From Steroidobacter denitrificans (lineage in GTDB: Bacteria > Pseudomonadota > Gammaproteobacteria > Steroidobacterales > Steroidobacteraceae), in NCBI RefSeq assembly GCF_001579945.1, contig NZ_CP011971.1:1-64000 (forward strand): 64,000 nucleotides of DNA, read 5' to 3'. The translations under genes were made by a program, and so were the position numbers. The notes below the pieces were generated by a model, which made no database searches, was not told where the DNA came from, and saw only the letters and a list, made by a program, of their open reading frames with translations. Numbering within the stretch: the stretch's first letter is position 1; each line of letters opens with the position of its first letter. This document shows positions 17,908 to 39,700 of this stretch, in pieces.

Positions 17908-17918
<11 letters not shown>
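16836..17918 (-). CDS. rhuM: RhuM-family protein between hsdM and hsdS
   Basis: This 360-residue protein belongs to the RhuM (virulence RhuM/Fic-DOC-associated) family. The N-terminal part has the typical [20 protein letters not shown] segment with a helix-turn-helix-like character, followed by [13 protein letters not shown] and VQFRKWA, and a long helical C-terminal part. The molecular function is not established. RhuM genes are often found inside type I restriction operons, as here: the start overlaps hsdM by 11 bp and the end is 6 bp from hsdS. This suggests co-regulation with the methylase. Confidence 0.9.
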
Positions 17919-19494
<1,576 letters not shown>

Positions 19495-23260: not shown

Positions 23261-25525
23261 ATGATTAAGCCTCTCCCTATCGCTCATGCCACCCGTGACG
23301 CGGATGGCAACTGGCGACCACCGCACGACCTGCTCGAACACCTGCACGAAGTCGGCGAGCTTGCCGCCGACTTCGCTCGCCGCTACGGCGCGGACTGGGC
23401 ACGCCTTGCCGGGCGCTGGCATGACTTGGGCAAGTTCCGCCCACGCTTCCAGAAATACATCCGCTTCGTCAGCGGATTTGAGGCGGATGCGCATATCAAG
23501 GGCGAAGCGGGCAAGGCACCGCACTCGACGGCAGGGGCGTTGCTTGCATGCGAACATTTCGAAAAAGCTGGATTCGGCCCTGCTGGTCGTGTGCTTGCCT
23601 ACCTGATTGCGGGGCACCACGCCGGGCTGGCCGACTGGTTCGGCGGCCTTCGCGAGCGTCTGGAAGACCCCAAAAGCCGGGCCGAACTGGATGAGTCGCT
23701 TGTCGAACAGCCGCCCACTGAGTTGCTGGATAGCGGCGATTTCAAACCCGATCTGCGCGCCGTCCCCGGCGGTAGGGACGGCTTTGCGCTATGGATACGC
23801 ATGCTGTTCTCAGCACTCGTCGATGCGGATTTTCTGGACACCGAGCGCTACATGGACCCGGACAGGTTCGCTAGTCGCAACACCTGGCCGACGCTCGAAG
23901 AGTTGGCACCGTTGTTCGATGCCCATATGACAAAGCTCGTCGCCGGGGCCGACCCGACGCCGGTCAACGCGTTGCGCGCCGACATTCTGCGCCAGTGCCA
24001 CGACGCCGCTGCGCTCGATGCCGGTCTGTTTTCGCTGACCGTTCCGACCGGTGGCGGCAAGACGCTTTCCGGCATGGCCTTCGCGCTGGAGCATGCGCGC
24101 GGCCACAGCAAGCGCCGCATCATCCATGTCATTCCCTACACGAGCATCATCGAGCAGACCGCCGACGTGTTCCGCGACATCTTCGGCGACGCGGTGGTCG
24201 AGCACCATAGCAACGCCGAATCCGAACCCGACAAGGAAACCTCGGCCTCGCGTCTGGCTTGCGAAAACTGGGACGCACCCATCGTCGTCACCACCAATGT
24301 ACAGTTCTTCGAATCGCTGTTCGCCTCGCGAACCTCACGCTGCCGCAAGCTGCACAACATCGTCGATTCGGTTGTCATCCTCGATGAAGCGCAATTGCTG
24401 CCGCCAGAGTTCCTGCAGCCCATCCTGGATGTGCTCAATCTGCTGACGCGGCATTACGGTGTTACAGTCGTGCTTTCGACCGCGACACAGCCGGCGCTCG
24501 CCAGCCGAGAATACTTCGATACTCGGCAGAACCGGCGCGGCCTCGATAACGTGCGCGAGATCATCTCCGACCCTGACGCGCTGTATGTCGCATTGGAGCG
24601 TGTCGAGGTTCGCCTGCCCAGCGACTGGCATCAACCGACCGACTGGCCGCAACTGACTGAAGCCCTCTGCGCACATGAGTCCGTGCTTGCCATCGTCAAC
24701 ACCCGCAAAGACGCCCGTGCACTGTGGGAGGCCATGCCACAAGGTACGCTGCATCTGTCCGCGCTGATGTGTGGCGCACATCGCTCGCAGGTCATCGCCG
24801 ACATCAAGGCACGTCTCAAAGCCGGCGCCTCCACCAGCGTCGTCAGCACGCAACTGGTAGAAGCTGGTGTGGATGTGGATTTTCCGGTGGTTTACCGTGC
24901 GCTTGCTGGACTGGATTCCATCGCCCAGGCGGCGGGACGTTGCAATCGCGAAGGTCGACTGAAGGGCAAGGGTGAGGTCGTCGTCTTCGTCCCGCCCGAA
25001 CCCGCACCGCAGGGATTGCTGCGCCAGGGGGAGAATGCGTGCCGCGAGGTGCTGCGTGATGCTGCGGATTCGCCCCTCGCTCGCACCCGCTTTGCGGCCT
25101 ACTTTGAGCGCCTGTACTACGGTTGCCAGCTCGACAAGGCGGGTATCCGTGAGCTGCTGTCGGTGAAGGACAGCCACGAACTGGCTGTTGATTTTCGCAC
25201 CGCCGCCGAGAAATTTCGGCTGATCGACGACGAAGACAGCCTGCCCATAGTCGTGCGCTATAGCGGCAAGGACGGGCGGGACGAACGCATCGATCAATGG
25301 CTCGCCATGCTGCGTCGCGATGGCCCGCAGCGCTGGCTGATGCGCAAGTTGCAGCGATACACCGTCAGCCTGCGTCGCAGGCAAGTCCTGCCCTTGCTGA
25401 ATCGGGGCGATATCGAGGAAATCCTGCCAGGCCTGTATGCACAAACGGGTGATGGACTGTACGACGAGAACCTCGGGCTGCTGCCGGAGGGAAAGGTCTG
25501 GAAAGCAGGAGATTTCGTGTGGTGA
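23261..25525 (+). CDS. cas3: Cas3 helicase-nuclease, type I-C
   Basis: Cas3 is recruited by Cascade and unwinds and degrades target DNA. The protein of 754 residues has an N-terminal HD nuclease (HLHEVGELAADFARRYG, RWHDLGKFRPRFQKYI, AGHHAGL) and an SF2 helicase with VPTGGGKT, VILDEAQLLPPE, VLSTATQPAL and QAAGRCNREGR. The ATG at 23261 starts MIKPLPIAHA; a longer frame to 23195 runs into non-conserved sequence. cas3 stands apart from the rest of the operon by a regulatory gap and a toxin-antitoxin pair. Helicase and HD residues appear intact. Confidence 0.97.
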   Translation: MIKPLPIAHATRDADGNWRPPHDLLEHLHEVGELAADFARRYGADWARLAGRWHDLGKFRPRFQKYIRFVSGFEADAHIKGEAGKAPHSTAGALLACEHFEKAGFGPAGRVLAYLIAGHHAGLADWFGGLRERLEDPKSRAELDESLVEQPPTELLDSGDFKPDLRAVPGGRDGFALWIRMLFSALVDADFLDTERYMDPDRFASRNTWPTLEELAPLFDAHMTKLVAGADPTPVNALRADILRQCHDAAALDAGLFSLTVPTGGGKTLSGMAFALEHARGHSKRRIIHVIPYTSIIEQTADVFRDIFGDAVVEHHSNAESEPDKETSASRLACENWDAPIVVTTNVQFFESLFASRTSRCRKLHNIVDSVVILDEAQLLPPEFLQPILDVLNLLTRHYGVTVVLSTATQPALASREYFDTRQNRRGLDNVREIISDPDALYVALERVEVRLPSDWHQPTDWPQLTEALCAHESVLAIVNTRKDARALWEAMPQGTLHLSALMCGAHRSQVIADIKARLKAGASTSVVSTQLVEAGVDVDFPVVYRALAGLDSIAQAAGRCNREGRLKGKGEVVVFVPPEPAPQGLLRQGENACREVLRDAADSPLARTRFAAYFERLYYGCQLDKAGIRELLSVKDSHELAVDFRTAAEKFRLIDDEDSLPIVVRYSGKDGRDERIDQWLAMLRRDGPQRWLMRKLQRYTVSLRRRQVLPLLNRGDIEEILPGLYAQTGDGLYDENLGLLPEGKVWKAGDFVW

Positions 25526-25528
25526 GCG

Positions 25529-25561
25529 CACGATGCGAAGGGCATTGCCCCTCGCATCGTG
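25529..25561. terminator. 33-nt hairpin between cas3 and the crRNA-like gene
   Basis: The arms cacgatgcgaagggca (25529-25544) and tgcccctcgcatcgtg (25546-25561) pair over 16 bases with one G-A mismatch and a one-base loop. It begins three bases after the cas3 stop. Read on the minus strand it follows the pseudo-spacer directly. It could form the 3' end of both cas3 mRNA and the minus-strand RNA. No T-tract follows on either strand, so intrinsic termination is uncertain. Confidence 0.55.
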
Positions 25562-25618
25562 ATGGCGCCGAACGGCCCCGACATAGTCCTAGTTTCAATC
25601 CGCCTCCGCAGGAGAGTG
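25562..25618 (-). ncRNA. Putative CreR/CreA-like Cascade-guiding RNA (pseudo-repeat plus pseudo-spacer)
   Basis: Read on the minus strand, 25618-25592 is a degenerate CRISPR repeat. It has a CTCC-TGC-GGAG hairpin followed by GGATTGAAAC, identical to the last ten bases of the array repeats (eleven of twelve if extended). A pseudo-spacer of about 30 nt follows, starting TAGGACTATGTCGG. That start matches TAGGAGTATGTAGG on the minus strand at 25655-25642, preceded by TTC, the type I-C PAM. The only mismatches in the 14 bases are at positions 6 and 12, the flipped-out positions that Cascade ignores. Known CreR and CreA RNAs repress promoters through such short matches without cleavage. Transcription and function are inferred. 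Confidence 0.7.
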
Positions 25619-25635
25619 AAAAAATTTTACCAAAA

Positions 25636-25667
25636 ATATTACCTACATACTCCTAGAATTGTAGTAT
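25636..25667. promoter_or_regulatory. Candidate Cascade-repressed promoter region with TTC PAM and 14-nt target
   Basis: The target is 25642-25655 (minus strand), with PAM TTC at 25658-25656. On the minus strand a -10-like TAATAT (25641-25636) lies immediately downstream, so PAM plus target would fill the 17-bp promoter spacer of the RNA gene itself, though the -35 there is weak. On the plus strand, TTACCT (25639-25644) and TAGTAT (25662-25667) at 17-bp spacing could drive the toxin-antitoxin and cas5-8-7-4-1-2 genes. Binding of Cascade would block either promoter. Hexamers are my reading of the sequence, not proven. Confidence 0.5.
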
Positions 25668-25707
25668 TGTGTTCAGCAGTGGGCTGGCGCTCGATGTGCT
25701 TCATTAG

Positions 25708-25750
25708 TCAGATGTCTGATTCATTATTAATATGACCATTTTAGATGGTC
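25708..25750. promoter_or_regulatory. Probable operator of the phd/vapC pair
   Basis: Two inverted repeats precede the antitoxin gene: TCAGATGTCTGA (25708-25719) and GACCAT-5 nt-ATGGTC (25734-25750). An A+T-rich ttattaatat between them could hold the -10 element. Phd-type antitoxins repress their own promoters by binding such palindromes, so this is a likely autoregulatory site. It lies downstream of the Cascade target. Confidence 0.55.
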
Positions 25751-25763
25751 ACTAGGATGCATC

Positions 25764-26045
25764 ATGAACGTCAATGCTGCTGAATTCAAAGCCAAATGCT
25801 TGAAGCTCATCGACGAGGTCGCCGCCACACATCAGCCGCTGGTGATTACCAAACGTGGCAAGCCCGTAGCGCGCATCGTTCCCGTCGAAGATGAGCCTTC
25901 GCCCCCGAGCCTGTTCGGCTACATGAAGGGTACTGGGGAAATCGTCGGCGATATCATCAATGTTCCATCCGAGCCGTGGTCGGCGGAAACCGGCGATGAG
26001 AGCGACCTGTATGTGCCTGTCGTGCCGAAAGACAGCGCACCATGA
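25764..26045 (+). CDS. Phd/YefM-type antitoxin inside the cas operon
   Basis: This 93-residue protein starts MNVNAAEFKAKCLKLIDEV, the Phd/YefM DNA-binding fold, with the conserved PLVITKRGKPVARIVP strand pair. The acidic C-terminal tail (VPSEPWSAETGDESDLYVP) would neutralise the toxin. The ATG follows AGGA at seven bases. The stop overlaps the toxin start as ATGA. It sits between cas3 and cas5c in the same direction, so it may be co-transcribed with the Cascade genes. Confidence 0.92.
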   Translation: MNVNAAEFKAKCLKLIDEVAATHQPLVITKRGKPVARIVPVEDEPSPPSLFGYMKGTGEIVGDIINVPSEPWSAETGDESDLYVPVVPKDSAP

Positions 26046-26473
26046 TCGTTTCGGACATGCCGCTCCTATTGGACACGCATGTCTGGATCTGGCTGTCGTT
26101 CGGCACGCCCGGCGCGTTCCAGCCAGACTTGCGAAAGCGCCTGGAGACGGCCGATCGCACTCACCCGCTACATGTATCGATCATTTCAGTATGGGAAGTA
26201 GCGCAGCTCGCTGCCAAGGGGCGGCTAAATCTCGCCAGGCCGACGCAGACCTGGGTCGAACAGTCTCTAGCACACCCGGCACTGCAGCTCCTTGCACTCA
26301 ATGACTCTGCTGTCGTCGTTGAAAGCAACGAGTTGCCTGGTCATTTTCACGCTGATCCGGCCGACCGCCTATTGGTCGCCACTGCGCGCATCGGTGGTTA
26401 TACCCTGGTCACACGTGACCGCAAGATTCTCGATTATGGGAAGGCGGGGTACGTGAACGTGCTTGCAGCCTGA
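26042..26473 (+). CDS. vapC: VapC-like PIN-domain toxin
   Basis: This PIN-domain ribonuclease has 143 residues. Acidic active-site positions are visible in LLLDTHVWIW and in HFHADPADRLLVATARIGG, with a final TRDRKILDYG. The conserved VSIISVWEVAQLAAKGRL segment is typical of VapC toxins paired with Phd antitoxins. Start choice: ATG at 26042 couples to the antitoxin stop; a second ATG at 26057 begins MPLLLDTHVW and is possible. It ends 14 bp before cas5c. Its insertion inside a type I-C operon may make the locus addictive. Confidence 0.92.
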   Translation: MIVSDMPLLLDTHVWIWLSFGTPGAFQPDLRKRLETADRTHPLHVSIISVWEVAQLAAKGRLNLARPTQTWVEQSLAHPALQLLALNDSAVVVESNELPGHFHADPADRLLVATARIGGYTLVTRDRKILDYGKAGYVNVLAA

Positions 26474-26487
26474 TTCTTGGGGGACGC

Positions 26488-27156
26488 ATGACGAAAACCT
26501 ACTGCCTGGAGCTTTCCGGCCCTTATGCCTGCTTTACTCGCCCGGAAATGAAGGTAGAGCGTGTCAGTTATGACGTAATAACCCCATCCGCTGCGCGTGC
26601 CTGCTTCGAGGCAATTCTATGGAAGCCCGCGATCCGTTGGCATGTACGCAAGATTGAAGTACTCAAGCCCATTCGCTGGATCAACCTGCGGCGCAACGAA
26701 GTCGCTAGCGTTGTTTCTACCCACAACGTCGAGACAGCGATGAAGGCAGGCAAGGGTGATTTGCGTATTTACATCGAGGATGACCGCCAGCAACGGGCTG
26801 GGCTGTTCCTGCGCGATGTGACCTACCGCGTCCACGCTGACCTGGAGTTCCTGCGCGAACGCGATCCGTCGGCCAATGCGGTGAAATATCAGGAAATGTT
26901 CGAGCGCCGCGTGGGCAAGGGCCAGTGTGTCAATCAGCCCTACTTGGGTTGCCGGGAGTTTGCTGCTGCATTCCGACCGGTTGACGCTTTGGAATCCGAA
27001 CCAGTTGCCATTTCCGAAACGCGCGATCTGGGCTTCATGTTGCATGATCTGGATTTCTCCAACCCTTCCGATCCACAGCCGCGATTCTTCCGCGCGAGGC
27101 TCGAGGACGGTGTCGTTGCTGTACCGGATTGGAACAGTGGGGAGGTACATGGATGA
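26488..27156 (+). CDS. cas5c: Cas5c (Cas5d), crRNA-processing subunit of type I-C Cascade
   Basis: In type I-C there is no Cas6; Cas5c cuts pre-crRNA at the base of the repeat hairpin and stays on the 5' handle. The 222-residue protein has the N-terminal RAMP strand YCLELSGPYACFTRPEMKVERVSYDVITPSAARAC and the W-KPAIRW segment, and matches the usual length. GGGGGACGC precedes the ATG as a ribosome site. The stop overlaps cas8c (ATGA). The same enzyme could process the crRNA-like transcript at 25562-25618. Confidence 0.95.
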   Translation: MTKTYCLELSGPYACFTRPEMKVERVSYDVITPSAARACFEAILWKPAIRWHVRKIEVLKPIRWINLRRNEVASVVSTHNVETAMKAGKGDLRIYIEDDRQQRAGLFLRDVTYRVHADLEFLRERDPSANAVKYQEMFERRVGKGQCVNQPYLGCREFAAAFRPVDALESEPVAISETRDLGFMLHDLDFSNPSDPQPRFFRARLEDGVVAVPDWNSGEVHG

Positions 27157-28904
27157 TTCTGAAAGCGTTGAACCGCTATTACGAACGTTCCGAAAGCCTG
27201 CCACGAGAAGGCTGGGTACGCCGTGGAGTGGATTATGTGGTCGTGCTCAACGCCCAAGGCGAATGCATCAACCTGGAGTCTATTGGTGAACTCAAGAAGG
27301 GAAAGACCGTACCTTCCGAGAGGCTGGTTACTGCGATTGGCAAGCAGGCGATGAAACACACCAACAGCGGCAAGGATGCCAATCTGCTGTGGGATAATGC
27401 CAGCTTTGTATTCGGGACAGGAAACAAGGGGGCAACCAAACTAACAAGCTTCATCGACACGCTGCAAGGTTGGCTTGGCGGGATAAATGATCCTGGCGTG
27501 GAAGCGGTAAAGCTATTTTGTTTAAATTTGAAGAAGCGACCGGAAGCAGCGGGCGTCCTGATTGAACGCTTTCAGCTCAAGAAAGATTTCGATAAACGTG
27601 ATCCGGTGCTGACCTTCCGACTGGTGGAGGACGTTGAGAGTGTGCACCTTCGTCCGCGTGTACGCGCAGCATATGAAGCTGCACTCATCGCCACCCAATT
27701 CGGGAGTCCCGTGCGCGGCAACTGTCTGGTTACAGGGCAGATCGATGTGCCGTTGGCTCTGAATGAATCTGTTATCAAAGGTGTATGGGGCGGTCAGCCC
27801 GCCGGCTGCAACATTGTGTCGTTCAACGCCCGAGCGTTCGAGTCCTATGGTAAGCGGGAGCGCAATGGTGAAAATGCGCCGGTCAGTACGCAAGCTTCCT
27901 TCGCCTATACCACTGCGCTGAATCATCTGCTGTCGTCTTCGCAACGCATCCAGGTCGGCGATGCCTCCACCGTGTTCTGGGCGGAGGAGCCACACGATCT
28001 CGAAAGCGCGATGTCCGACCTGTTCGGTGATCCACCCAAGGACGATCCGGACCGGAATGTCCGGGCGGTGGAGTCCTTATATTCCGCCGTCCACACCGGT
28101 AAATTCGCCGAAGGCGGGCTCAGTACGCGCTTCCACGTACTGGGGCTGGCACCCAATGCCGCGCGGATCAGCATCCGCTTCTGGGAAACGGCAACCGCAC
28201 TCGAACTCGGTGAGCGAATCAAGCAGCACTTCGACGATCTCGAAATCGTACACGCAGACTACGAGCCGCGCTACCTGTCGCTGTCCCGTCTGCTGAGGGG
28301 CGTGGCGCTGCTCAACAAGGCCGAAAACATTCCGCCCAATATTGGCGGCGAGGTCATGCGTGCCATCCTTGAAGGGTTGCCCTATCCAGCCACCTTGCTC
28401 AACCAAGCCGTCATGCGTTGCCGAGCAGAGCAGAGCGTTACCTACGCACGTGCTGCGGCCATCAAGGCCAGCCTCAACCGCCAGATTCGTTTTCGTCAAA
28501 GTCCCGAGAAGGAGTTCTTGCCCATGCTTGACCTCGGTAATACCAACCCCGGCTACCGGTTGGGGCGTCTGTTTGCCACACTGGAAAAAATCCAGGAAGA
28601 CGCGAATCCTGGCTTGAACGCGACCATCCGAGACCGTTACTACGGCGCGGCATCAAGCACCCCATCTGCCGTGTTCTCGACCTTGTTGCGCCTGTCCAAG
28701 CATCATCTGGGCAAGCTCCCCGGCGGTCTGGAGGTTGTCCGCGAGCGACTGATCGGAGAAATCATGGGCGGCTTCAGCGCCGACAGTTTTCCGCCGCGTG
28801 TCCTGCCGCTGGCTGATCAGGCACGCTTCGCCCTCGGTTACTATCACCAGCGCCAAGCCTTCTTCACCAAGTCTGAATCCAAGAATCAGGAGGAATGCCA
28901 ATGA
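27153..28904 (+). CDS. cas8c: Cas8c (Csd1), large subunit of type I-C Cascade
   Basis: Cas8c recognises the PAM and helps open target DNA; in type I-C an internal start also yields the small subunit Cas11. I place the start at the ATG at 27153 ([13 protein letters not shown]), which overlaps the cas5c stop and has GGAGG upstream, giving 583 residues. A longer frame from 27129 is less likely. Conserved stretches include [16 protein letters not shown] near the N-terminus and [14 protein letters not shown] [19 protein letters not shown] at the C-terminus. Confidence 0.95.
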
Positions 28905-29818
28905 GCCTCAGCAACCGCTACGACTTCGTCCTGCTTTTCGAGGTGAAGGACGGTAACCCGAATGGCGATCCGGACGCCGGCAACTTGCCGCGACTGGATG
29001 CGGAGACCGGACACGGCCTCGTAACCGATGTGTCGCTCAAGCGCAAGGTGCGTAATTTCGTCGGACTGGTGAAGGGCGATGCTCCTCGTTTCGACATCTT
29101 CGTTAGGGAAAAGTCCGTTCTGAATCGGCAGATCGAGCGGGCATATGAGAAAAGCGGGAAAGTACAGGCCGCAATGGAGGCATGGAAAAACTGGCAAAAG
29201 GATAAAAGGAATAATCCGAAGCCGGATCGTCACTACGAAGATATTGCCCGCGACTGGATGTGCGACAACTTTTTCGATGTTAGGGCTTTTGGTGCCGTAA
29301 TGAGTACTGGAGATGAGGATGCAGAAAGCAAGCTGAAGAAAACCGCCGGTCAGGTTAGAGGTCCGATTCAGTTGACCTTCGCGCGCTCCGTTGACCCGAT
29401 CGTCTCTCAAGAACATTCGATCACTCGGATGGCGGTGACGAATGAAAAGGATCTTGAAAAAGAGCGCACGATGGGTCGCAAGCACACCGTGCCTTATGGC
29501 CTCTACGTCGCACACGGTTTCGTGTCGAGCTTCCTCGCCAAGCAGACCGGCTTCTCGCAAGACGACCTGGAACTACTGTGGCAGGCGCTCGGCCAGATGT
29601 TCGAACATGACCGCTCGGCAGCACGAGGCGAAATGGCTACGCGAGGATTATATGTATTCAAGCACGATTCAGAACTTGGCAACGCGCCCGCCCATGTACT
29701 ATTCGAACGCATCCGCGTGCAGAAGAATACCGAAATTCCCCGCAGTTTTGCAGACTACGCTGTGAAGATGGACGACACTGCAATGCCGACTGGTGTCACC
29801 GTCAGCAAACTGTTCTGA
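28901..29818 (+). CDS. cas7c: Cas7c (Csd2), backbone subunit of type I-C Cascade
   Basis: Cas7 forms the helical backbone along the crRNA and displaces every sixth base pair, the reason mismatches at those positions are tolerated. The protein is 305 residues from the ATG at 28901 ([28 protein letters not shown]), which overlaps the cas8c stop and has AGGAGG at seven bases. The N-P-N-G-D-P motif and [13 protein letters not shown] are typical of the Csd2 family. Motif [18 protein letters not shown] ends the protein. Confidence 0.96.
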
Positions 29819-29839: not shown

Positions 29840-30472
29840 ATGGACGATGAAGATCTGCTTCCTCTCTCCGCTCTCCAGCACTTCCTGTACTGCCCGCGCC
29901 AGTGCGCACTGATTCACTTGGAGCAGCAGTGGGCCGAGAATCGGCAGACTGCCGAGGGCCGTTTGCTGCACGAGCGTGTCGACACCCCGCGGGCCGAACA
30001 CCGCCGGGGTGTGCGCACCGTAAGTGCAATGCCGTTGCTCTCCCTGGATCTGGGTATCACCGGCAAGGCTGACGTGGTCGAATTTCATAACACCGATACC
30101 GGTGAGAGTCCACTTCCAGTGGAATATAAGCGCGGTCGCCCGAAGGCGCATCGTGCCGATGAAGTACAGCTATGTGCGCAGGCGCTGTGCCTGGAAGCGA
30201 TGCTCGGCAGGCCAGTTGAGGTCGGCACCCTATTCTACGGACAGACCCGCCGGCGGAAGGAGGTGCCCTTCGATCGGGAACTGCGTGAACTCACCATGCG
30301 AACGATTGCAGATACGCGCGCTGTGTTCGCTTCGGGCCAGACGCCGTCCGCATGCTACGACGCGCGGCGGTGCGACGCCTGCTCGTTGCTTGATCTGTGC
30401 CAGCCCCGTCTGCTTGGTCATAGAAGCGTAGGCGTGTGGCTGCAACGACAGCTCGAGGATGAGGAGATGTGA
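29840..30472 (+). CDS. cas4: Cas4 nuclease
   Basis: Cas4 trims prespacers next to the PAM and sets their orientation during adaptation with Cas1-Cas2. The 210-residue protein has the first cysteine in FLYCPRQCALIHLEQQW, a RecB-like nuclease core with LPVEYKRGRPK, a QLCAQALCLE motif, and the C-terminal cysteine cluster CDACSLLDLCQP for the iron-sulfur site. It lies 21 bp after cas7c and 3 bp before cas1, so it is in the same transcript. Confidence 0.95.
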   Translation: MDDEDLLPLSALQHFLYCPRQCALIHLEQQWAENRQTAEGRLLHERVDTPRAEHRRGVRTVSAMPLLSLDLGITGKADVVEFHNTDTGESPLPVEYKRGRPKAHRADEVQLCAQALCLEAMLGRPVEVGTLFYGQTRRRKEVPFDRELRELTMRTIADTRAVFASGQTPSACYDARRCDACSLLDLCQPRLLGHRSVGVWLQRQLEDEEM

Positions 30473-30475
30473 CAG

Positions 30476-31510
30476 GTGCGACGCCAGCTCAACACCTTAT
30501 ATGTGACCACCGAGGGGGCCTGGCTGCGCAAGGACGGTGCCAACATCGTGATGGAGGTGGAGCGCGAGGAGCGCGTACGCCTGCCGGTACATATGCTGGA
30601 AAGCCTAGTCTGCATTGGCCGAGTGGCGGTGTCACCGCAACTTCTGGGCCACTGTTCAGCGCAGGGTATTAGTATCTGTTATCTGACGCCGCACGGCCGC
30701 TTTCTTGCGCGGGTCGAAGGTCCGGTTTCTGGAAACGTGCTGCTTCGCCGGGAGCAGTATCGGCGCAGCGACGATCCGGCGCGGTGCGGCGCGATCGTGC
30801 GCAATCTTCTCGTCGGGAAGATCCATAACCAGCGCGCGGTGCTTGCCCGTGGTTGGCGCGATCACGGTGAGCGACTGTCCGATAGCGCGGTGTTCCAGCA
30901 TGCACTCAAGCGGTTGAAGCGTATTCCGCAGCGGCTGATGCAAGAACAGGATGTCGATCTGCTACGCGGCCTGGAGGGTGAGGCGGCGCAGGCCTACTTC
31001 GGCGTGTTCGATCAATTGATCCGGGCTGAATCGCCGCTCCTGCACTTTGGTGGGCGCAACCGCCGGCCGCCACGTGATGCCTTCAATGCCTTACTTTCCT
31101 TTCTCTACACACTGCTGACTCATGACTGCCGTTCGGCGCTGGAAACCATAGGACTCGATCCGGCGGTGGGCTTTCTGCACCGTGACCGCCCTGGCCGTCC
31201 CAGTCTGGCGCTGGACCTGGCCGAGGAATTTCGACCATTGCTGGGTGAGCGTCTGGCGTTGTCCTTGATCAACCGCCGGCAGTTGAACGAACGTGACTTC
31301 CAGTTCTTCGATAACGGTGCGGTGCAATTGAAGGACGATGCACGCAAGACTGTACTGGTGGCCTATCAAGAGCGCAAACGGGAGCAACTCCACCATGCCT
31401 TTCTCGGTGAAAAAGTGGATATCGGCTTGCTGCCATTTGTGCAGGCGCAGCTGCTTGCACGTCACCTCAGAGGCGATCTGGACGGCTACCCACCGTTTCT
31501 GTGGAAATGA
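30476..31510 (+). CDS. cas1: Cas1 integrase, type I-C
   Basis: Cas1 with Cas2 inserts new spacers at the leader end. The 344-residue protein starts at the GTG 30476 (MRRQLNTLYVTTEGAWLRKDGANIVME), the normal I-C Cas1 N-terminus. Conserved helical-domain segments include FNALLSFLYTLLTHDCRSALETIGLDPAVGFLH, with the catalytic Glu and His positions, and RPSLALDLAEEFRPLL with the final acidic residue. The active site seems complete, so adaptation is probably possible. Confidence 0.96.
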   Translation: MRRQLNTLYVTTEGAWLRKDGANIVMEVEREERVRLPVHMLESLVCIGRVAVSPQLLGHCSAQGISICYLTPHGRFLARVEGPVSGNVLLRREQYRRSDDPARCGAIVRNLLVGKIHNQRAVLARGWRDHGERLSDSAVFQHALKRLKRIPQRLMQEQDVDLLRGLEGEAAQAYFGVFDQLIRAESPLLHFGGRNRRPPRDAFNALLSFLYTLLTHDCRSALETIGLDPAVGFLHRDRPGRPSLALDLAEEFRPLLGERLALSLINRRQLNERDFQFFDNGAVQLKDDARKTVLVAYQERKREQLHHAFLGEKVDIGLLPFVQAQLLARHLRGDLDGYPPFLWK

Positions 31511-31526: not shown

Positions 31527-31817
31527 ATGATGGTCCTGGTCAGTTATGATGTTAGCACGACGTCTGTCGACGGAGAGAAGCGCCTACGTCGCGTGGCCAA
31601 GGCCTGCCGTGACTTGGGACAGCGGGTGCAATACTCGGTATTCGAGATAGAAGTCGAACCCGCCCAGTGGGTCCAACTGCGGCAACGGTTGTGCGATCTA
31701 ATCGATCCGGAGTTGGACAGTCTTCGCTTCTATCATCTGGGTGCGAATTGGGCGAGGCGCGTCGAACATGTTGGCGCCAAACCGACACTGGATCTGAAGG
31801 CCCCCTTGATCTTCTGA
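31527..31817 (+). CDS. cas2: Cas2
   Basis: Cas2 is the structural partner of Cas1. It has 96 residues from the ATG at 31527 (the ATG at 31530 is equally placed). The first strand MVLVSYDVST carries the conserved Asp, followed by RRVAKACRDLGQRVQYSVFEIEVEPAQW. It starts 16 bp after cas1 and is the last cas gene before the leader. Confidence 0.95.
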   Translation: MMVLVSYDVSTTSVDGEKRLRRVAKACRDLGQRVQYSVFEIEVEPAQWVQLRQRLCDLIDPELDSLRFYHLGANWARRVEHVGAKPTLDLKAPLIF

Positions 31818-31992: not shown

Positions 31993-34132
31993 GTCGCGCC
32001 CTCACGGGCGCGTGGATTGAAACGCACCGACCTCATCGATCTTGGCTTGCAGGTCGGCGTCGCGCCCTCACGGGCGCGTGGATTGAAACCAGCACTTGTG
32101 TCTGCTTCTCGTGGCCGCACGACAGTCGCGCCCTCACGGGCGCGTGGATTGAAACCAGGAATTCTTCGAGCGTCTGCCCGCCGTGAATGCGTCGCGCCCT
32201 CACGGGCGCGTGGATTGAAACATACCGCCACCGTTGTGATGAGGATTTCGTTTCGCCACGTCGCGCCCTCACGGGCGCGTGGATTGAAACGATGTGTCGA
32301 TCACATGCAGCGCATAGACCTGCGCGTCGCGCCCTCACGGGCGCGTGGATTGAAACCATGTTTAATGCTGAGGACGCCTCCAAGGCTGCTGTCGCGCCCT
32401 CACGGGCGCGTGGATTGAAACAAGCCGGGACGCTAGATAAAGCTTATCTGGACGCGTCGCGCCCTCACGGGCGCGTGGATTGAAACTGGTCTACCTGGAT
32501 GCTAACAGGCTCTGGGTCGTGTCGCGCCCTCACGGGCGCGTGGATTGAAACTCGAAAAGCTGCTCGGGGTGCGTCAGCTCCTCTTGTCGCGCCCTCACGG
32601 GCGCGTGGATTGAAACCAGAATCACTCCAATCAAAGGCGGCGCGCATTGCCGGTCGCGCCCTCACGGGCGCGTGGATTGAAACATGCACGATCTTGGCGC
32701 GAACAACTCATTCGCCTCGTCGCGCCCTCACGGGCGCGTGGATTGAAACATGCACGATCTTGGCGCGAACAACTCATTCGCCTCGTCGCGCCCTCACGGG
32801 CGCGTGGATTGAAACAACCGCCACCTGGTCGGTGGCCGCGCCCCTCGCCAAGTCGCGCCCTCACGGGCGCGTGGATTGAAACTCGCGATCACGCAGGATG
32901 ATCGTGCACGTGCGCGTGGTCGCGCCCTCACGGGCGCGTGGATTGAAACCAGATCGTCGTAGATCGCGAGGCCCTTCGCGCCGCCGTCGCGCCCTCACGG
33001 GCGCGTGGATTGAAACACGAGCACGAGACACAGGAGGTGGTACATGGGTGAGTCGCGCCCTCACGGGCGCGTGGATTGAAACTGATTGACGCAGACGCGG
33101 CACGGTGCTTTCGCAGGTCGCGCCCTCACGGGCGCGTGGATTGAAACAAGCGCCATGTCCTGAGTCGGCCCGATATAGAACGTCGCGCCCTCACGGGCGC
33201 GTGGATTGAAACTGAGGCTCGCCAGGAGCGCGCAGGTTGTGGGCGACCGTCGCGCCCTCACGGGCGCGTGGATTGAAACTGGCGCAGCCGGTGGAGCGGG
33301 ATCAATCGCTCTGGTCGCGCCCTCACGGGCGCGTGGATTGAAACCATTTTATCCACGTCAACGGCGGGATTGATCGCCGGTCGCGCCCTCACGGGCGCGT
33401 GGATTGAAACTTGATCCTTGCCGCGTCACGCCGATGGTGAGTGAAGTCGCGCCCTCACGGGCGCGTGGATTGAAACAGTGCAATCGCACGGCATGCTCCA
33501 AAAAGACATGGTCGCGCCCTCACGGGCGCGTGGATTGAAACTTACAACAAATGCACGGTGCGCATAGATACGCCTGTCGCGCCCTCACGGGCGCGTGGAT
33601 TGAAACGAGAGATCCGGGCTTTGTCTGGAAAATACCGAGAGTCGCGCCCTCACGGGCGCGTGGATTGAAACCGAGTTGAAACGCCATGCAGACCAGTGCG
33701 CCTTGTCGCGCCCTCACGGGCGCGTGGATTGAAACAGTGCCGGCCTCAAGCGCGCTGAGAGGGTTGTCGTCGCGCCCTCACGGGCGCGTGGATTGAAACC
33801 ATACTTCCTCGTCATACATATCGCGATCGGTGCCAGTCGCGCCCTCACGGGCGCGTGGATTGAAACTCGTCTATCGACGAGGCGTGGGCTGCGTGGCGGC
33901 GTCGCGCCCTCACGGGCGCGTGGATTGAAACTGAGCTATGTCGCGCGCCTCAAACAGACCATCGGTGTCGCGCCCTCACGGGCGCGTGGATTGAAACAGG
34001 TCGATGTTTACGCGGCGAAGCAAGAGACCGCGAGTCGCGCCCTCACGGGCGCGTGGATTGAAACAGCATCCTGATGGACATGGAGGTCGATCCATCCAAA
34101 GGTCGCGCCCTCACGGGCGCGTGGATTAAAAC
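31993..34132 (+). CRISPR. Type I-C CRISPR array, 33 repeats and 32 spacers
   Basis: Thirty-three copies of a 31-nt repeat start GTCGCGCCCTCACGGGCGCG and end TGGATTGAAAC. The stem is GCGCCC-TCAC-GGGCGC. Spacers are mostly 34-38 nt. The repeat is the I-C type, one base shorter than the common 32-nt form. Spacers at 32684-32718 and 32750-32784 are identical, so one 66-bp unit has been duplicated. The last repeat (34102-34132) reads ATTAAAAC instead of ATTGAAAC, marking the old, leader-distal end. Array, leader and cas genes share the plus strand. Confidence 0.99.
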
Positions 34133-34158: not shown

Positions 34159-35169
34159 ATGGTGCTATCGTCGGTTGGTGTGGGGGACGACGAAGAAACT
34201 GTCGAGGACGCGATCAACCGGCTGATGGAAGCAAAGAAGCTGCTGCCGGATGCCAGTTACTTCGCCTTCACGGCCACGCCTAAGAACAAGGCGCTGGAGA
34301 TCCTCTCCGAAGAAACGGACCCCAACAATCTGCACGACCTGAAGTCGGCACTGGACGGCTATCAGGTCTACGATACAGTGCAGACTCAAGAGCTGGTGGC
34401 GCTGTATCTCGGTGGTGCGGACCGCGATCGCCTCGACCCGATTCTCGATGCCTGCGTGGCACGTGAACAACTCGACGAGGACGGCCAGGTCGATTTCAAG
34501 GGCAAAGCTAAAGCTTTCCTGCGTACCTATGGCTTTCTATCCTCGACTCTGCCCTACACCGACGCAGAGTGGGAGAAGTTGTCGATTTTCTTCACTTTCC
34601 TCGTTCCCAAGCTGCCGGCGCCAGTGGAGGAGGATCTGTCCAAGGGCATCCTGGAATCCATCGACATGGACAGCTACCGGGTCGAGAAGCAGGCGGCGAT
34701 GAAAATCCAGCTTCCCGACGAAGATGCACAAATCGACCCCGTACCTGCCACGGGTAGAGGTCGTAAGCCAGAGCCAGAGCCAGAGCCGGAGCCGGAGCTG
34801 GAGCTGGAGCTGGAGCTGGAGCTGGAGCTGGAGCTGGAGCTGGACCGATTATCGAATATCCTGAAGACGTTCAACGACCAGTTTGGCAATATCCCGTGGA
34901 CTGATGCCGATCGCGTGCACAAGCTGATCACCGAGGATATTCCGAGCCGCGTCGCGGCGGACACGGCCTATCAGAACGCAAAGCGCAATTCGGATCGGCA
35001 GAATGCCCGTATCGAACACGACAAGGCCTTGGCGCGCGTGATGACTGCAGTGCTGAAGGACGACACGGAATTGTTCAAGCAGTTCATGGACAACGAGTCG
35101 TTCAAGCGCTGGCCGACCGATACCGTGTTCGGGTTGACTTACGAAGAACGCAGACCGAGCGGTCCATAG
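34159..35169 (+). pseudogene. Truncated HsdR-like relic with dipeptide repeats
   Basis: The frame carries the middle and C-terminus of a second, unrelated HsdR-type protein. Helicase motif III appears as DASYFAFTATPKNKALEIL, then the sequence jumps to a C-terminal helical region (SIFFTFLVPKLPAPVEEDL, MDSYRVEKQ, and the end FKRWPTDTVFGLTYEERR). The nuclease domain, Walker A and DEAH box are absent, and most of the second RecA domain seems deleted. A hexanucleotide tract at about 34767-34843 encodes repeated Pro-Glu then Leu-Glu. It begins 27 bp after the last CRISPR repeat. No hsdM or hsdS for it is present, so I call it a relic, although the frame is open. Confidence 0.7.
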
Positions 35170-35407: not shown

Positions 35408-35463
35408 GGGTCCAAGAATAGGTCCATGTGGAATCGGACACGTCGAGAAAATCAACGCAGATC
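35408..35463. repeat. Island-end repeat, copy 2, fused to the end of jetD
   Basis: The sequence gggtccaagaataggtccat at 35408-35427 and the bases to about 35463 match 22976-23030. Here no mnmE-like att core follows; instead the last codons of jetD (minus strand stop at 35452-35454) lie within the repeat. This implies a rearrangement that joined an island end to the Wadjet operon. Confidence 0.6.
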
Positions 35464-36705
35464 CTCGAGCAATTCCTGCGCCACGGCCTCCTCGGCAATG
35501 GCCAAGCCATGTTCGCACATCACCCGGACGAGTTGCGGATCCCAGCTCGCTTCGAGCGTGACGGTATCCAGGTTGGGCTGTTGCACCGCAGAGCAGCGTT
35601 CGATAGCCAGCAGATAGTCTGTCGCGCCGAAGCGCCACGGTACGGCATTCCATCGCCGTATGACCAGATTGCCGATACCGATGCCCGGCCAGTCGAAGTC
35701 GCCGTGGTAGTGCAATTGCGCGCCGGCAGCGACAAGCTGGTCGAGCAGGGTCTGCTGGGCCGCGGCGGGCATACCATCGGTGCAGACCAGCGGAGCGCAG
35801 CCGGCGCCGAGGGTATCGGCGGCGATGGCGACGATATTCGGATTCTCGCAAACAAAGATGCGGCATCCGGTGAGACGCCAGATTGGCGGGCTACGCAGCA
35901 GCTGCCGCAGCGACAGCCATGTGGGTTCACCGGGTATCCCGATACCTGTAACGTCGGCCGCAGGTGGCAGGTTCAGGACCAGAGCGGGCCGCGCCAATTC
36001 GTTGACCAGCACGCCGGCCTGCGCCCAGATGTCGCGTGCGCGTTCCTTGCCGCTTCTGTCGCTGGACTCTCCGGCTGCCGATCGATCCGCGTGCGCATGC
36101 TGGCGATGTCCCAATACTTTCAGCACCAGTGTGGCCACCGGCCGGCCAGCATCCAGGGCATGCGCATCGCCCAGTGTTTCAGCGGCCAGTTGTGAACGAG
36201 TCAGCCCGCCGGCCGGCAGGTGGCGCAACACCCTGTCGGCATCGGCGAGCAGGCATGCAGCGCGATCCGGATCGCGGCCCAGACGTTTGAGCAGCGTCAA
36301 TGCAGCCGGCGTGCGTAGCCAGGCTAGTCGGCGCACGTCGCCGATCCGCGTTGCGGCGAGTGCCGACCAGCGTGCTTGTAAGGCGCGTCGCAGGTGGCTC
36401 CTTGGCGCGATAGGACCTTCCAGTTGCTCCAATGCGTCGCGCAACGAATCGGCAAGACCACCGGCGCGCAGCCGTGCATCCAACTCGCTGATGTCCAGTG
36501 TCATCGAGCGTGCATTGCGTGAGGGACTGCCGATGAGCTGGCATAGCGCGGCGTATGCGGCCGGGTCAAGGCCGGCCAGCCGCAGGCGAGTTGTGCGCGA
36601 ACCCGGTTCGGTACGTTCATAATGACGACGCAACCGTTGACGTACGCTGGCCAGCGCAGTGCTACCCAGCAGTCGCCGCAGACGGTGGTCGGAGGCGTCA
36701 GTCAT
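35452..36705 (-). CDS. jetD: JetD, TOPRIM-like nuclease subunit of type II Wadjet
   Basis: This 417-residue protein of the TIGR02679 type (DUF3323 and DUF2399) is the nuclease that cuts plasmid DNA once the JetABC motor has extruded a whole small circle. The TOPRIM-like C-terminal half shows the acidic positions in IFVCENPNIVAIA and the HYHGDFDWPGIGI motif. Start overlaps jetC by 8 bp. The final residues lie in a sequence that also forms part of an island-end repeat, so the extreme C-terminus may have been altered by rearrangement. Confidence 0.9.
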   Translation of the reverse strand: MTDASDHRLRRLLGSTALASVRQRLRRHYERTEPGSRTTRLRLAGLDPAAYAALCQLIGSPSRNARSMTLDISELDARLRAGGLADSLRDALEQLEGPIAPRSHLRRALQARWSALAATRIGDVRRLAWLRTPAALTLLKRLGRDPDRAACLLADADRVLRHLPAGGLTRSQLAAETLGDAHALDAGRPVATLVLKVLGHRQHAHADRSAAGESSDRSGKERARDIWAQAGVLVNELARPALVLNLPPAADVTGIGIPGEPTWLSLRQLLRSPPIWRLTGCRIFVCENPNIVAIAADTLGAGCAPLVCTDGMPAAAQQTLLDQLVAAGAQLHYHGDFDWPGIGIGNLVIRRWNAVPWRFGATDYLLAIERCSAVQQPNLDTVTLEASWDPQLVRVMCEHGLAIAEEAVAQELLEDLR

Positions 36706-39700
36706 CGCAGCAAATTCCGTTTACCGGCGGAAAGCGCCGGTCCGGATCGTTCTTTACGCGCCGAGCGCGACCATCCCAGATCCAGCGCGAAACGAACACC
36801 GCATCGACGCCTTCGCGCCGCTGCAGTTGGCAGATTGCTACGCCGGGCAGCTCGGCGTAGCAAGCCCATTCGCGTTCACTGGTGATGACGAAGTCCAGGT
36901 CGAATTCGCGGATCAACCCCATGCAATGAGCGCGGGCGGCATCGTCGATGCCGGCGAAAGCTTCGTCCAGCAGCATCAGTCGTGGCGCGAGCCGGCTCGC
37001 GCCGTGGCCGTAGAAGCTGGCGATGGCGGCGAACAGCGGCACGGTCAAGCCCAATGCACGCTCGCCGCTGGAAGCCGGACCGGACAGCTTGCGCCACTGG
37101 CCATCCTGCAGGCGCTGTACGGCGAACCGATGCCAATAGCGATAATCCAGTGCGCGGGCGAGCTGTTCGGCGAGACTGCCGCCGGAAACCTCGGCGTCGG
37201 CACGGGCGCGCTCCGCGGCAATGCGCTGCTGCAGCAGGCTGCCGATGGCACGTCGGTCCTCGGCCGACCATAGATCGGCGCTGGTATTCAGCAGGCGCTC
37301 GCGGGCAACGTCCAAGCCGGCGGGGGCGCCTTCCTCGGCCGACAGCGGCTCCCACTTCAAGCGATAGCGCACGCCCGTGCTGGTCGGCCGTTTGCGCAGC
37401 TCCTCGTTGATGGCGCTGACCCGCTCGTCCGCGGCACGCATCAGGCGCTGGATCTCGGCGGCGATCTCGGCCTGCAGATGATTTTCCAGCACTTCGCGCT
37501 CTCTGGCCGACAACAGCTCGCTGCGTTGCGCGATGTCCTCGGCCAGCAGCGCGGTCAATGTGTCGGGACGTTCGGCCCGGTTTTGGTACTGGATGTGGAC
37601 GGTGAAGCCCCAGTCGTTGGGTTCGGAGACAGCCTGGTGGCCAAGAGCAGTCAGCGCGCGTTGCAGTTCGTTCAGATCTTCGGCGACCTGCTTGGTCACA
37701 CGGCTCCATGCCTGCTCTCCATCGGCGAGGTGGCGCAGATCTTGTTCGATGCGCCGTGCCAGGTTCAGCGCCGGATCGATACTCCAGATTTCAGGCATTG
37801 CCAGTTCCGGTAGCGCGGCGGCCAGCAGGCCGCTGGCCGCGAAGCGCTGCACGCGTTCGGCTGCATGCATGCGTTCGGCGCTGCGCGTGGATAATGTCTG
37901 CTCCTTCTGGGTGGATTCGGTCTGCGCGACGGCACGTCGTTCGCTGGCCGCACGCAAGTCGTCTTCGGCTTTCTGTAAAGCCGTTTCGATGCGCTGGCTC
38001 GCTTCGCGTGCGGCGCGCAGTGCCTGCAGCAGCGCATCGACCTTGGCGCCGACGGAACGCTGCAAGGTAGTAAAACGCACCGTAGCCTGGTCGGCGTCTT
38101 CACGAGCATGGCGCAGCGTCGCTTCGACCTGATCATGCAGTGTGCGTGCGTCTTGCTCGCGCTGTTGCTGCTCGAGGAGGGCGGCACGATCGCGCTGCCA
38201 GGCCTGGGCTGCCTGCGACAGGCCGAAGCGGGTATGGTCGAATTGCTCCAACATCTGCTCGATCGCCGGGAGTTGATCGGCTTCGGCAGGCAGCCTCAGA
38301 TCGGCGGCGTCGTGCTGCAGTGTTTGCTGTACATCCTGCAGCGCTTGTTCGGCTTCGCGGAGGCGGGCATTGGCCTGTTCCAGCCGCAGGCGCGCACGAG
38401 TGGCCTGCTGCCCGGCATTGATCGCCGCCACAATGGCAGTTTGCAGAGCCTGATCGGAGGGCGCGCAGCGATACTCCTGCGCAGCCAGGTTGCGAGCGGT
38501 CTGCAGCGTGTCGAACTGCTGCGCCAGATCGGCATCGGCCACATCCAGCGCGGCGATGGCTGTATCGATTTCCTGCAGGCGTTGCTGCCGCGCGCGTTCG
38601 CGGGCAGTGTGGCCGATGTAGCGCGCTTCGGACTTGCGCCATGCGCCGGACAGGGCTCCGAGACGAAAGCGGCCATCGGCCGAGATCCAGCTCTCGGCAT
38701 CCTGCCGGTCTTCCATGCCCCATGCCACGCCGGCCAGCAACGTGATGAGCAGACTGGCCGGAACGGGTGAATCCTCGGGCAGCGATGGAACCAATGCATC
38801 GTTCAGGCATGGACCGGCAACCGGTAAACGGTGGGCCCAGTGGGTATCCAGCAGCGGCTGGCCGGTGGCGTCGGCCAGGTTGCCGTCGGGCGATAGCCAG
38901 GCATCGAGCAGTCCGCTGGCTTCCAGTGCAGCCTCCAGTCCGGCCCGCTCGGCTGCGGTCAGTCTCGGATGAAAATCCAGCAGTCGCCACAATGGTGCTC
39001 CTGGGCGCGCACCGCGGATGCCGGGAGTACGGGTGAACGGTTCGAGGGGAACGGTATCCTCGCCGCCGAGCAGCTGTGCCTGCTCCAGTGTCAGTGCTGC
39101 GCGCTGCTGTTGTTGTGCGGTGCGTAACCCATTCAGCTCGGCCTGTCGTGCAGCGTGGCGGGCCAGCGTCGCTTGCCACGCGCCAGTCAACGCCATCAGC
39201 GCGGGGTTGTTACCCTCGGGATGTGCCGCCCATGCCGCAAGTTGCTGCAAGGGTCCGTTGGCATCGAACTTCAGTTGCACCAGATCCGCGCCGTAGCGCG
39301 ACCAGCTCTCGGTCAACGCACTACCTTCACGCTCGGCTTCCAGATCGGCCTGCCGGCGCTGCTCCAGGGCCTCGTCGTGTTCAGTGTCGGCATCGCTCCT
39401 GTGCGTCGCGGCCTGTGCCCGCAGTGCCAGCCGCTGATCGACTTCGGCATGACGCTGGCGCAGCAGCACAAGATCCTGACGCCGCCGCGATACCGCAGTC
39501 TGCAGGGCTTGTGTGCCCGCCTGCAGCTCCGAGGGCGAGTCGGCCAGTGCATCGGCATCCAGGGCCAGCAGCGGGTTGGCGTCCACCGATGCGTCGATAC
39601 CGAGGGCGGTGGCGGCGTGGCGCAACTCCGCGCGCGCCGCTTCTACCGCGCCGCATGCATCCTGTGCCTGCCGGACGCGTTGTTCGCTGCGTTCCGCCTC

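Follow-up and report, generated by a model that had tools for sequence, protein, structure and literature searches.

The RNA guides closest to the element described here are those of the CreTA, CrePA and CreR systems. In the type I-B CreTA of Haloarcula hispanica and Halobacterium hubeiense, CreA pairs with its target through positions 1-5 and 7-11 beside a TTC; changes at position 6 or 12 are harmless, whereas a change at any of the other ten costs about 10^4-fold in transformation (PMC8501985). The outward flipping of each sixth guide base has been described for type I-E (PMC5965380). In a type I-E locus, creA is encoded on the opposite strand within the cas3-casA gap and precedes a translated toxin that arrests growth (PMC12055562). 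In Citrobacter rodentium, the target then follows with its PAM (ATG) near a promoter, and between this target and the Cascade genes stands a small toxin that must be translated, a 96-bp ORF described as having no homology to annotated sequences (PMC12055562). CreR is a crRNA-like RNA whose complex represses cas promoters, and in CrePA a protein toxin, CreP, typically a KilA-N protein, is held by a Cascade-guided RNA antitoxin (PMC12737573).

We have examined the first 64,000 nt of the Steroidobacter denitrificans contig NZ_CP011971.1 (GCF_001579945.1; positions 1-64,000, forward strand), a stretch that we refer to as the window. It contains a type I-C locus in which Pfam identifies cas3, phd, vapC, cas5c, cas8c, cas7c, cas4 and cas1, and PADLOC identifies cas2 (Table 1); NCBIfam and PADLOC searches with the window vapC gave no match. 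The gap between cas3 and phd measures 238 nt and holds, on the minus strand, a guide element and its target. TTC, which adjoins this target, is the type I-C PAM. The order of parts resembles that of C. rodentium, with the guide on the opposite strand after cas3, and the pairing resembles that of the archaeal I-B systems, in that a guide with a repeat-like handle pairs through positions 1-5 and 7-11 beside TTC, leaving 6 and 12 free. This pattern of guide and target is, as far as sequence can tell, the signature of CreA/CreR, here in type I-C.

Table 1. Features of the type I-C locus, in window coordinates.
Feature	Positions	Strand	Remarks
cas3	23261..25525	+	Pfam Cas3_HD, DEAD, Cas3-like_C_2; start codon not settled, ORF open from 23195
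3' hairpin	25529..25561	-	14-bp stem; 30 nt past handle; no U tract
Pseudo-spacer	25562..25591	-	TAGGACTATGTCGG, running down from 25591; nt 1-14 (25591-25578) match target except at 6 and 12
5' handle	25592..25602	-	CGGATTGAAAC, 11 nt (C plus GGATTGAAAC); final ten bases are the end of the array repeats
Pseudo-repeat hairpin	25603..25615	-	TCTCC-TGC-GGAGG, 5-bp stem; ends 1 nt before GGATTGAAAC
Candidate extended -10 of guide RNA gene	25624..25632	-	TGGTAAAAT; by eye, start near 25617; absent from consensus scan
Target (protospacer)	25642..25655	-	TAGGAGTATGTAGG; sequence match to guide
PAM	25656..25658	-	TTC; adjoins target
Candidate forward -10	25665..25670	+	TATTGT; 6 nt past PAM; weak (4/6), absent from consensus scan
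Candidate phd promoter/operator	25728..25752	+	TAATAT and inverted repeat GACCAT..ATGGTC; by eye; similar GACCA..TGGTC before phd in L015, L016
phd antitoxin	25764..26045	+	PF02604, E 3.4e-12; TIGR01552
vapC toxin (PIN domain)	26042..26473	+	PF01850, E 4.1e-12
cas5c	26488..27156	+	PF09704
cas8c	27153..28904	+	PF09709; start not settled
cas7c	28895..29818	+	PF05107
cas4	29840..30472	+	PF01930
cas1	30476..31510	+	PF01867
cas2	31527..31817	+	PADLOC Cas2c, E 1.4e-42
CRISPR array	31993..34132	+	31-nt repeats, repeat GTCGCGCCCTCACGGGCGCGTGGATTGAAAC

The surroundings of the locus have features of their own. Two adjacent repeat-spacer units of the array (32653-32784) are identical, so that one spacer is duplicated. 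Right past the array PADLOC places a type II Wadjet system (JetD 35452-36705, JetC 36698-40882). One flank of the CRISPR locus carries an HsdM-like type I methyltransferase (17908-19494, PADLOC) and the other, at 34159-35169, a piece that by eye resembles the HsdR C-terminus, with a PEPE/LELE repeat and no PADLOC match. Possibly, the CRISPR locus was inserted within a restriction locus. Two pairs of direct repeats of 72-74 nt (20426-20497/35192-35263, 81% identical; 22957-23030/35390-35463, 77%) flank it in the same order and are possible traces of its insertion.

A reading of this DNA made from the letters alone, which we call the sequence-only reading, had claimed a repeat-like element on the minus strand that lies under a hairpin and ends in the last ten bases of the array repeats, with an adjoining pseudo-spacer that matches a target preceded by TTC, mismatched only at positions 6 and 12 and ending at 14. 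Both statements proved exact, to the letter, when the sequence was read again; guide and target 14-mers differ at these two positions alone and their likeness ends after the fourteenth. The window therefore presents a solitary degenerate repeat with a processing-type hairpin, a 5' handle and cas genes nearby, and beside it a PAM-flanked target with partial, PAM-proximal pairing that leaves positions 6 and 12 free, as in guides of the CreA/CreR type. The target starts 54 nt upstream of the handle and lies 26 nt from the stem. A second target for this guide was sought and none was found elsewhere in the window or genome: counting matches from base 1 and ignoring each sixth position, the target scores 14 and the runner-up in the whole 64-kb window scores 7. 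Handle and guide together (a 24-mer, up to three mismatches allowed) occur once in the 3.47-Mb genome, as does the PAM with its target, TTCTAGGANTATGTNGG (no mismatch). A consensus scan of 25400-25900 gave no terminator.

To place the element among relatives, loci had to be drawn from a wide sample. When the cas3-cas5c gap of the window was searched as DNA in 98 relatives, only its own genome matched, and a Cas5c search of 196 relative genomes gave five matches, namely its own genome and four at 41-55% identity. Since the kin of this host thus rarely possess a I-C system, loci were sampled at large: the best 80 of at least 593 loci ranked by Cas5c were taken, together with 4 viral contigs, and up to 30 loci at each of the class and phylum levels, where Cas5c matched in 37 of 369 and 34 of 398 genomes, respectively (own genome counted in each). 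Among the matches listed in a protein search, the nearest Cas5c sequences are 93-87% identical to that of the window. A separate plasmid search with Cas5c returned 52 records, all below 60% identity. Without these records, and with the matches from the 196 genomes and the window itself, the total is 147 sequences (individual loci are denoted by L and a number). Cas5c was found in 144 of these and at 40% identity or more in 132, and the 12 loci below that value may be of other subtypes. L035 and L096 have the same sequence around cas5c, and L154 and L156 stand outside all counts.

cas3 was found upstream in 131 loci, and its distance to cas5c is at most 60 nt in 91 of them, 61-150 nt in 7, 151-500 nt in 21 and more than 500 nt in 12. 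The 53 loci with a gap above 60 nt, or in which no cas3 was found, were searched for elements and gave 42 handle-like hits. We retained 17 hits whose partner is TC-flanked and has no more than two mismatches outside positions 6 and 12; in all 17 the flank proved to be TTC. Three more (L061, L032 and L114), in which the handle is exact and a partner can be seen though it is irregular, were added by eye, bringing the number of elements to 20. The 22 other hits, five of them second hits in retained loci, were dropped, and none of these has the exact handle. Because the 17 were chosen for having a partner, counts by position within them are conditional on a match. Less conditioned are the best-match test that makes no demand for a PAM, the control with 522 candidates and the 15 elements with an exact handle, all given below.

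Over the 17 pairs, guide and target agree in 198 of 204 comparisons at positions 1-14 once 6 and 12 are set aside. The corresponding figure for positions 6 and 12 is 13 of 34, and for positions 17-33, which serve as background, 81 of 289. The few disagreements outside 6 and 12 fall at 7 in L022, 10 in L093, 11 in L047, 14 in L106, and 3 and 13 in L102. The 17 pairs hold 16 different guide 14-mers, and this diversity shows co-variation, as opposed to one inherited sequence; the pairs are not all independent, as L109 and L110 share a 14-mer. When the best 14-nt match to the pseudo-spacer was sought in each gap, with no PAM required and no position ignored, it adjoined TTC in 17 of the 20, with mismatches at position 6 in 8 of these 17, at position 12 in 13, and at all other positions together in 6. 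In the three irregular elements, the PAM is TTT in L032 (mismatch at 12) and GTT in L114 (mismatches at 6, 12 and 14), and the target of L061 is, by eye, one base short. The exact GGATTGAAAC handle is present in 15 elements and every one has a partner; 12 of these partners are regular and three irregular. In an alignment of seven loci the handles of all seven line up, and so do the targets of four, namely the window, L010, L022 and L093.

Two controls bear on these numbers. Guides compared with foreign gaps matched with at most two mismatches outside 6 and 12 in 8 of 884 comparisons, and four of these eight cross-locus matches are among the related L109, L110 and L129, with one more between the related L022 and L093. 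The 147 sequences contain 522 solitary handle candidates, and for 16 of them a TTC site with at most one mismatch outside 6 and 12 lies within 500 nt, compared with 6 of 10,440 random positions; all 16 lie upstream of cas5c in the cas3-cas5c gap (in L106 cas3 was not found). The sequence-only reading had counted a lack of co-variation between pseudo-spacer and target in relatives among the findings that would speak against it, and the pairs do co-vary. At the level of DNA, this result and the near freedom of positions 6 and 12 give strong support to its proposal that a I-C locus contains a CreA/CreR-like guide and a PAM-flanked target, and guide and target are kept together across these 17 loci of the wider sample, judged by their sequences.

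The possibility that the similarity in the window arose by chance, or that the element is a decayed and functionless array remnant, should be considered in this light. Only 12 bases are matched in the window, and single-repeat remnants occur near arrays. The co-variation over 17 loci and the pattern at 6 and 12 speak against both notions, and we regard them as highly improbable for the window. As a general reading, chance matching is refuted by the co-variation, the difference between 16 of 522 and 6 of 10,440, and the window-wide uniqueness of the target score. The element could likewise be compared with Racr, an RNA anti-CRISPR that consists of a solitary repeat in a viral genome with no cas association (PMC10651486). 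That identification was ruled out, as the present element lies within a cas locus and has a target in cis.

The predicted RNA also has a recurrent shape. In 15 of the 20 elements a stem of 5 bp or more closes precisely one base ahead of the ten-base handle, compared with 865 of 10,000 letter shuffles; at other spacings between stem and handle the number is 2-10 of 20, and the letters of the stem differ between elements. In 15 of the 20 the strongest downstream hairpin begins 25-36 nt past the handle, the region in which type I-C crRNAs, with an 11-nt 5' handle and a 33-nt spacer, carry their 3' handle (PMC5965380). In L109 and L110 the downstream hairpin is part of a second, degenerate repeat, and one- and two-repeat forms are thus found here as in archaeal creA (PMC8501985).

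The 20 elements occur in three layouts. In layout (a), which is that of the window and resembles C. rodentium, a minus-strand guide with its target upstream follows cas3, and an ORF and cas5c come next. Eight relatives (L010, L022, L040, L047, L061, L077, L093, L114) show the order cas3, hairpin, guide, target, small ORF and cas5c, with a small ORF assigned to one family; L075 has no small ORF, and the window has phd-vapC in its place, with no small ORF of the L010 type seen in its gap. In layout (b) (L109, L110, L129, L133) a small ORF precedes a plus-strand guide, and ahead of this ORF, on the other strand, lies the target. Layout (c), a guide with no such ORF, is found in L026, L032, L098 and L102, and less clearly in L089 and L106.

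In all, 12 of the 20 element loci have a small ORF of 33-54 aa in this slot, mostly of membrane type and one of them frameshifted. For the 11 intact ones the peak hydropathy over 17 residues is 1.5-2.8, lowest in L109 and L129. An alignment (A2) of seven of the eight layout (a) ORFs has the consensus M.W.G.LRELRLL..QLP.DRFYAL.. followed by a hydrophobic tail. The L077 ORF is only 17% identical to that of L010, and the frameshifted L047 was placed in the family by its DNA. The A2 profile matches at least 125 proteins at E <=0.01, four of them from the query alignment; none of the 120 listed carries a Pfam domain, and where a source name is given it is "hypothetical" or "uncharacterized". NCBIfam and Pfam searches with five of the twelve small ORFs gave one NCBIfam match far under the cut-off and nothing else. 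The eight are assigned to one unannotated family, and the small, mostly membrane-type ORFs of the relatives are likely toxins.

Individual loci offer further observations. The frameshift of L047 is due, by eye, to a short tandem duplication (5860-6000), and its guide and target are mismatched at 11 and 15; loss of a toxin may possibly have relaxed the guard here. L075 (5800-5900) has guide and target with no membrane ORF seen, and then a mini-ORF, MRNSREII, with AGA and ATA codons, which recalls an RNA-type CreT. In L026 (5890-5935) the stem arms CATTGAT..ATCAATG could, by eye, enclose the target, so that target and guide hairpin would overlap within a single short plus-strand leader of cas5c. 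The guide of L032 (5739-5957), in an autoregulator layout, is followed by a cysteine-containing small ORF (up to 72 aa, no Pfam or NCBIfam match) before cas5c. The 384-nt cas3-cas5c gap of L130 (reverse complement, about 1155-1456) contains an ORF that by eye resembles GIY-YIG, and no guide, and this ORF is perhaps another cargo of the slot.

phd and vapC both occupy the cas3-cas5c gap in ten records (L015, L016, L023, L030, L035, L036, L095, L096, L097 and the window), which make nine distinct loci, L035 and L096 being the same sequence. A guide is present only in the window; none was found in the eight other distinct loci. In a Cas5c tree of 100 rows (identity of at least 58%, plus the element loci; L075, L089 and L106 labelled as guide without small ORF), guide with small ORF (12 rows) requires 10 changes and shows hardly any clustering (as few changes in 45 of 500 shuffles), and phd-vapC (9 rows, the window apart) requires 4. 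Within a single clade of support 100/100, L093 and L022 have guide and small ORF, L023 has phd-vapC and L094 has neither. The five rows closest to the window have no insert. This distribution indicates that the cas3-cas5c slot is often emptied and refilled.

We now consider the promoters around the target. The consensus scan of 25400-25900 reported one sigma-70-like site, at 25752-25723 on the minus strand and away from the target, with 0.6 expected by chance. The candidate forward -10 conforms to TAnnnT, and on the plus strand this motif recurs 6 nt past the PAM in the window, L010, L022, L093 and L061, and at 7 nt in L047. It is thus found at 6-7 nt in 6 of 9 minus-strand modules, the window included and L114 left out (at offset 6 alone, 5 of 9), compared with 4 of 9 at offset 1 and 3 of 9 at offset 3. 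Recurrence at other offsets may be expectable in AT-rich DNA, and the placement is only modestly special. If TATTGT were the -10, the 14-nt target would occupy its -35 to -10 stretch. By eye, a 13-codon frame, MCFISQMSDSLLI, covers the phd promoter; we weighed it as a mini-ORF like CreT and set it aside, since it is probably no more than a by-product of the AT-rich promoter.

Our preferred interpretation, to which we assign a probability of about 0.75, is that the element is a CreA/CreR-type guide for the adjacent I-C Cascade, and that RNA and Cascade together repress phd-vapC-cas5c-cas8c-cas7c as well as the guide's own transcription. The guide RNA would be transcribed from the minus strand, cut at its own hairpin by Cas5c and loaded, and it would lead Cascade to the TTC-flanked target. 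Pairing over 12 bases (1-5, 7-11 and 13-14) would allow binding without cleavage, and Cascade would cover a likely forward promoter at the target, repressing the genes in front of it and the guide gene alike. When free Cascade falls, through an anti-CRISPR protein, loss of a cas gene or an excess of crRNA, Cascade and cargo would both rise. The I-B pairing rule and the I-E layout with its translated toxin lead us to commit to Cascade-guided repression. Which promoter Cascade would repress we infer from position: the target lies upstream of phd-vapC, with cas5c-8c-7c downstream of both, next to a candidate forward promoter that is weak and absent from the consensus scan, and it sits in front of the guide gene on the guide's own strand.

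This last fact raises the question of whether the guide acts solely on its own promoter. Among the 17, each of the 11 modules with guide and target on one strand has its target beginning 28-84 nt upstream of the handle, and this target may therefore overlap the promoter of the guide. L109, L110, L129 and L133, however, have the target on the opposite strand, ahead of the small ORF and some 205-245 nt upstream of the guide, and we consider it quite unlikely that autoregulation is the only function. A stronger contender, to which we give somewhat less than even odds, is that RNA and Cascade act as a CreR that tunes only the cas operon and the guide gene, with phd-vapC a bystander under a promoter controlled by Phd. 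Consistent with this, phd retains a promoter/operator-like element downstream of the target, so that phd-vapC-cas could escape repression; the eight guide-less loci show that phd-vapC does not need a guide; and L026, L032, L098 and L102 combine a plus-strand guide and an adjacent target with no small membrane ORF. Against it, the target lies upstream of phd, so that a repressed forward transcript would include phd-vapC, and in 8 of the 9 relatives that share the window layout a small ORF occupies the position that phd-vapC has in the window (L106 is left out of this count, its target being on the other strand).

A further possibility is that the pair is a relic: guide and target would be left over from a time when the slot held a small toxin ORF under their guard, would have outlasted its replacement by phd-vapC, and would now be inactive. 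Fast turnover of the slot within one Cas5c clade (L093, L022, L023, L094) would permit such a history, as would the lack, to inspection, of a small ORF of the relatives' family in the window gap. Yet the window keeps all 12 read positions and the PAM, while in L047, with its frameshifted ORF, positions 11 and 15 are mismatched. This contrast is a single case and no proof, as L022 and L093 each have an extra mismatch with intact ORFs, but on balance a relic seems unlikely. Returning to the preferred reading of an active guide, the same place leads in relatives into small ORFs that are likely toxins, and the stretch from guide to cas5c appears to be a guarded cargo slot, here filled by phd-vapC. 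Carried further, this suggests that the I-C cas3-cas5c gap may be a plug-in slot for toxins, in which one promoter would serve toxin and Cascade genes and be shut by Cascade with a guide in cis. Most cargo would be membrane peptides of about 40 aa from one unrecognised family, and the window would hold a plugged type II toxin-antitoxin under a double lock, Cascade on the promoter and Phd on VapC, which a phage would open by disabling Cascade. We offer this wider scheme tentatively, as an idea that could well prove wrong.

The locus departs from each described system in some respect. C. rodentium CreTA is of type I-E with a different PAM, and its place between target and Cascade genes is taken in the window by phd-vapC and in the I-C relatives by other small ORFs, putative toxins (PMC12055562). 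The archaeal CreTA employs Cas6 and a toxin RNA that sequesters a rare tRNA (PMC8501985), whereas here Cas5c is the predicted processing enzyme and the cargo codes for protein. CreR best fits L026, L032, L098 and L102, while the window has phd-vapC ahead of its cas genes; the review on CreR treats types I and V-A in general, and the term I-C is absent from it (PMC12737573). CrePA shares with the window a protein toxin under a Cascade-guided RNA (PMC12737573). The window toxin is a PIN-domain VapC with its own Phd, and Pfam gives only PIN and Phd in the two cargo proteins, with no KilA-N domain. The survey of standalone repeats by Shmakov (2023, NAR 51:8150) reportedly describes mini-arrays aimed at the promoters of cas genes, or at those of cargo such as toxin-antitoxins, and loci of the window's kind may be in its tables. 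In a partial search of the literature, with that survey outside it, we recognised no I-C repeat regulator, no phd-vapC within a I-C locus and no CRISPR-guarded membrane peptide. The kind of guide is thus already known from CreTA, CreR and CrePA (PMC12737573); the I-C cases, the small ORF family and a guide before phd-vapC are possibly new.

If our interpretation is correct, Cascade-guided self-regulation would extend to type I-C, and the paired guides and targets of these loci would constitute a natural record of the guide positions that Cascade reads. It would also define a new family of small proteins that CRISPR is likely to guard, and would make the S. denitrificans locus a candidate for control by Cascade over a complete protein toxin-antitoxin.
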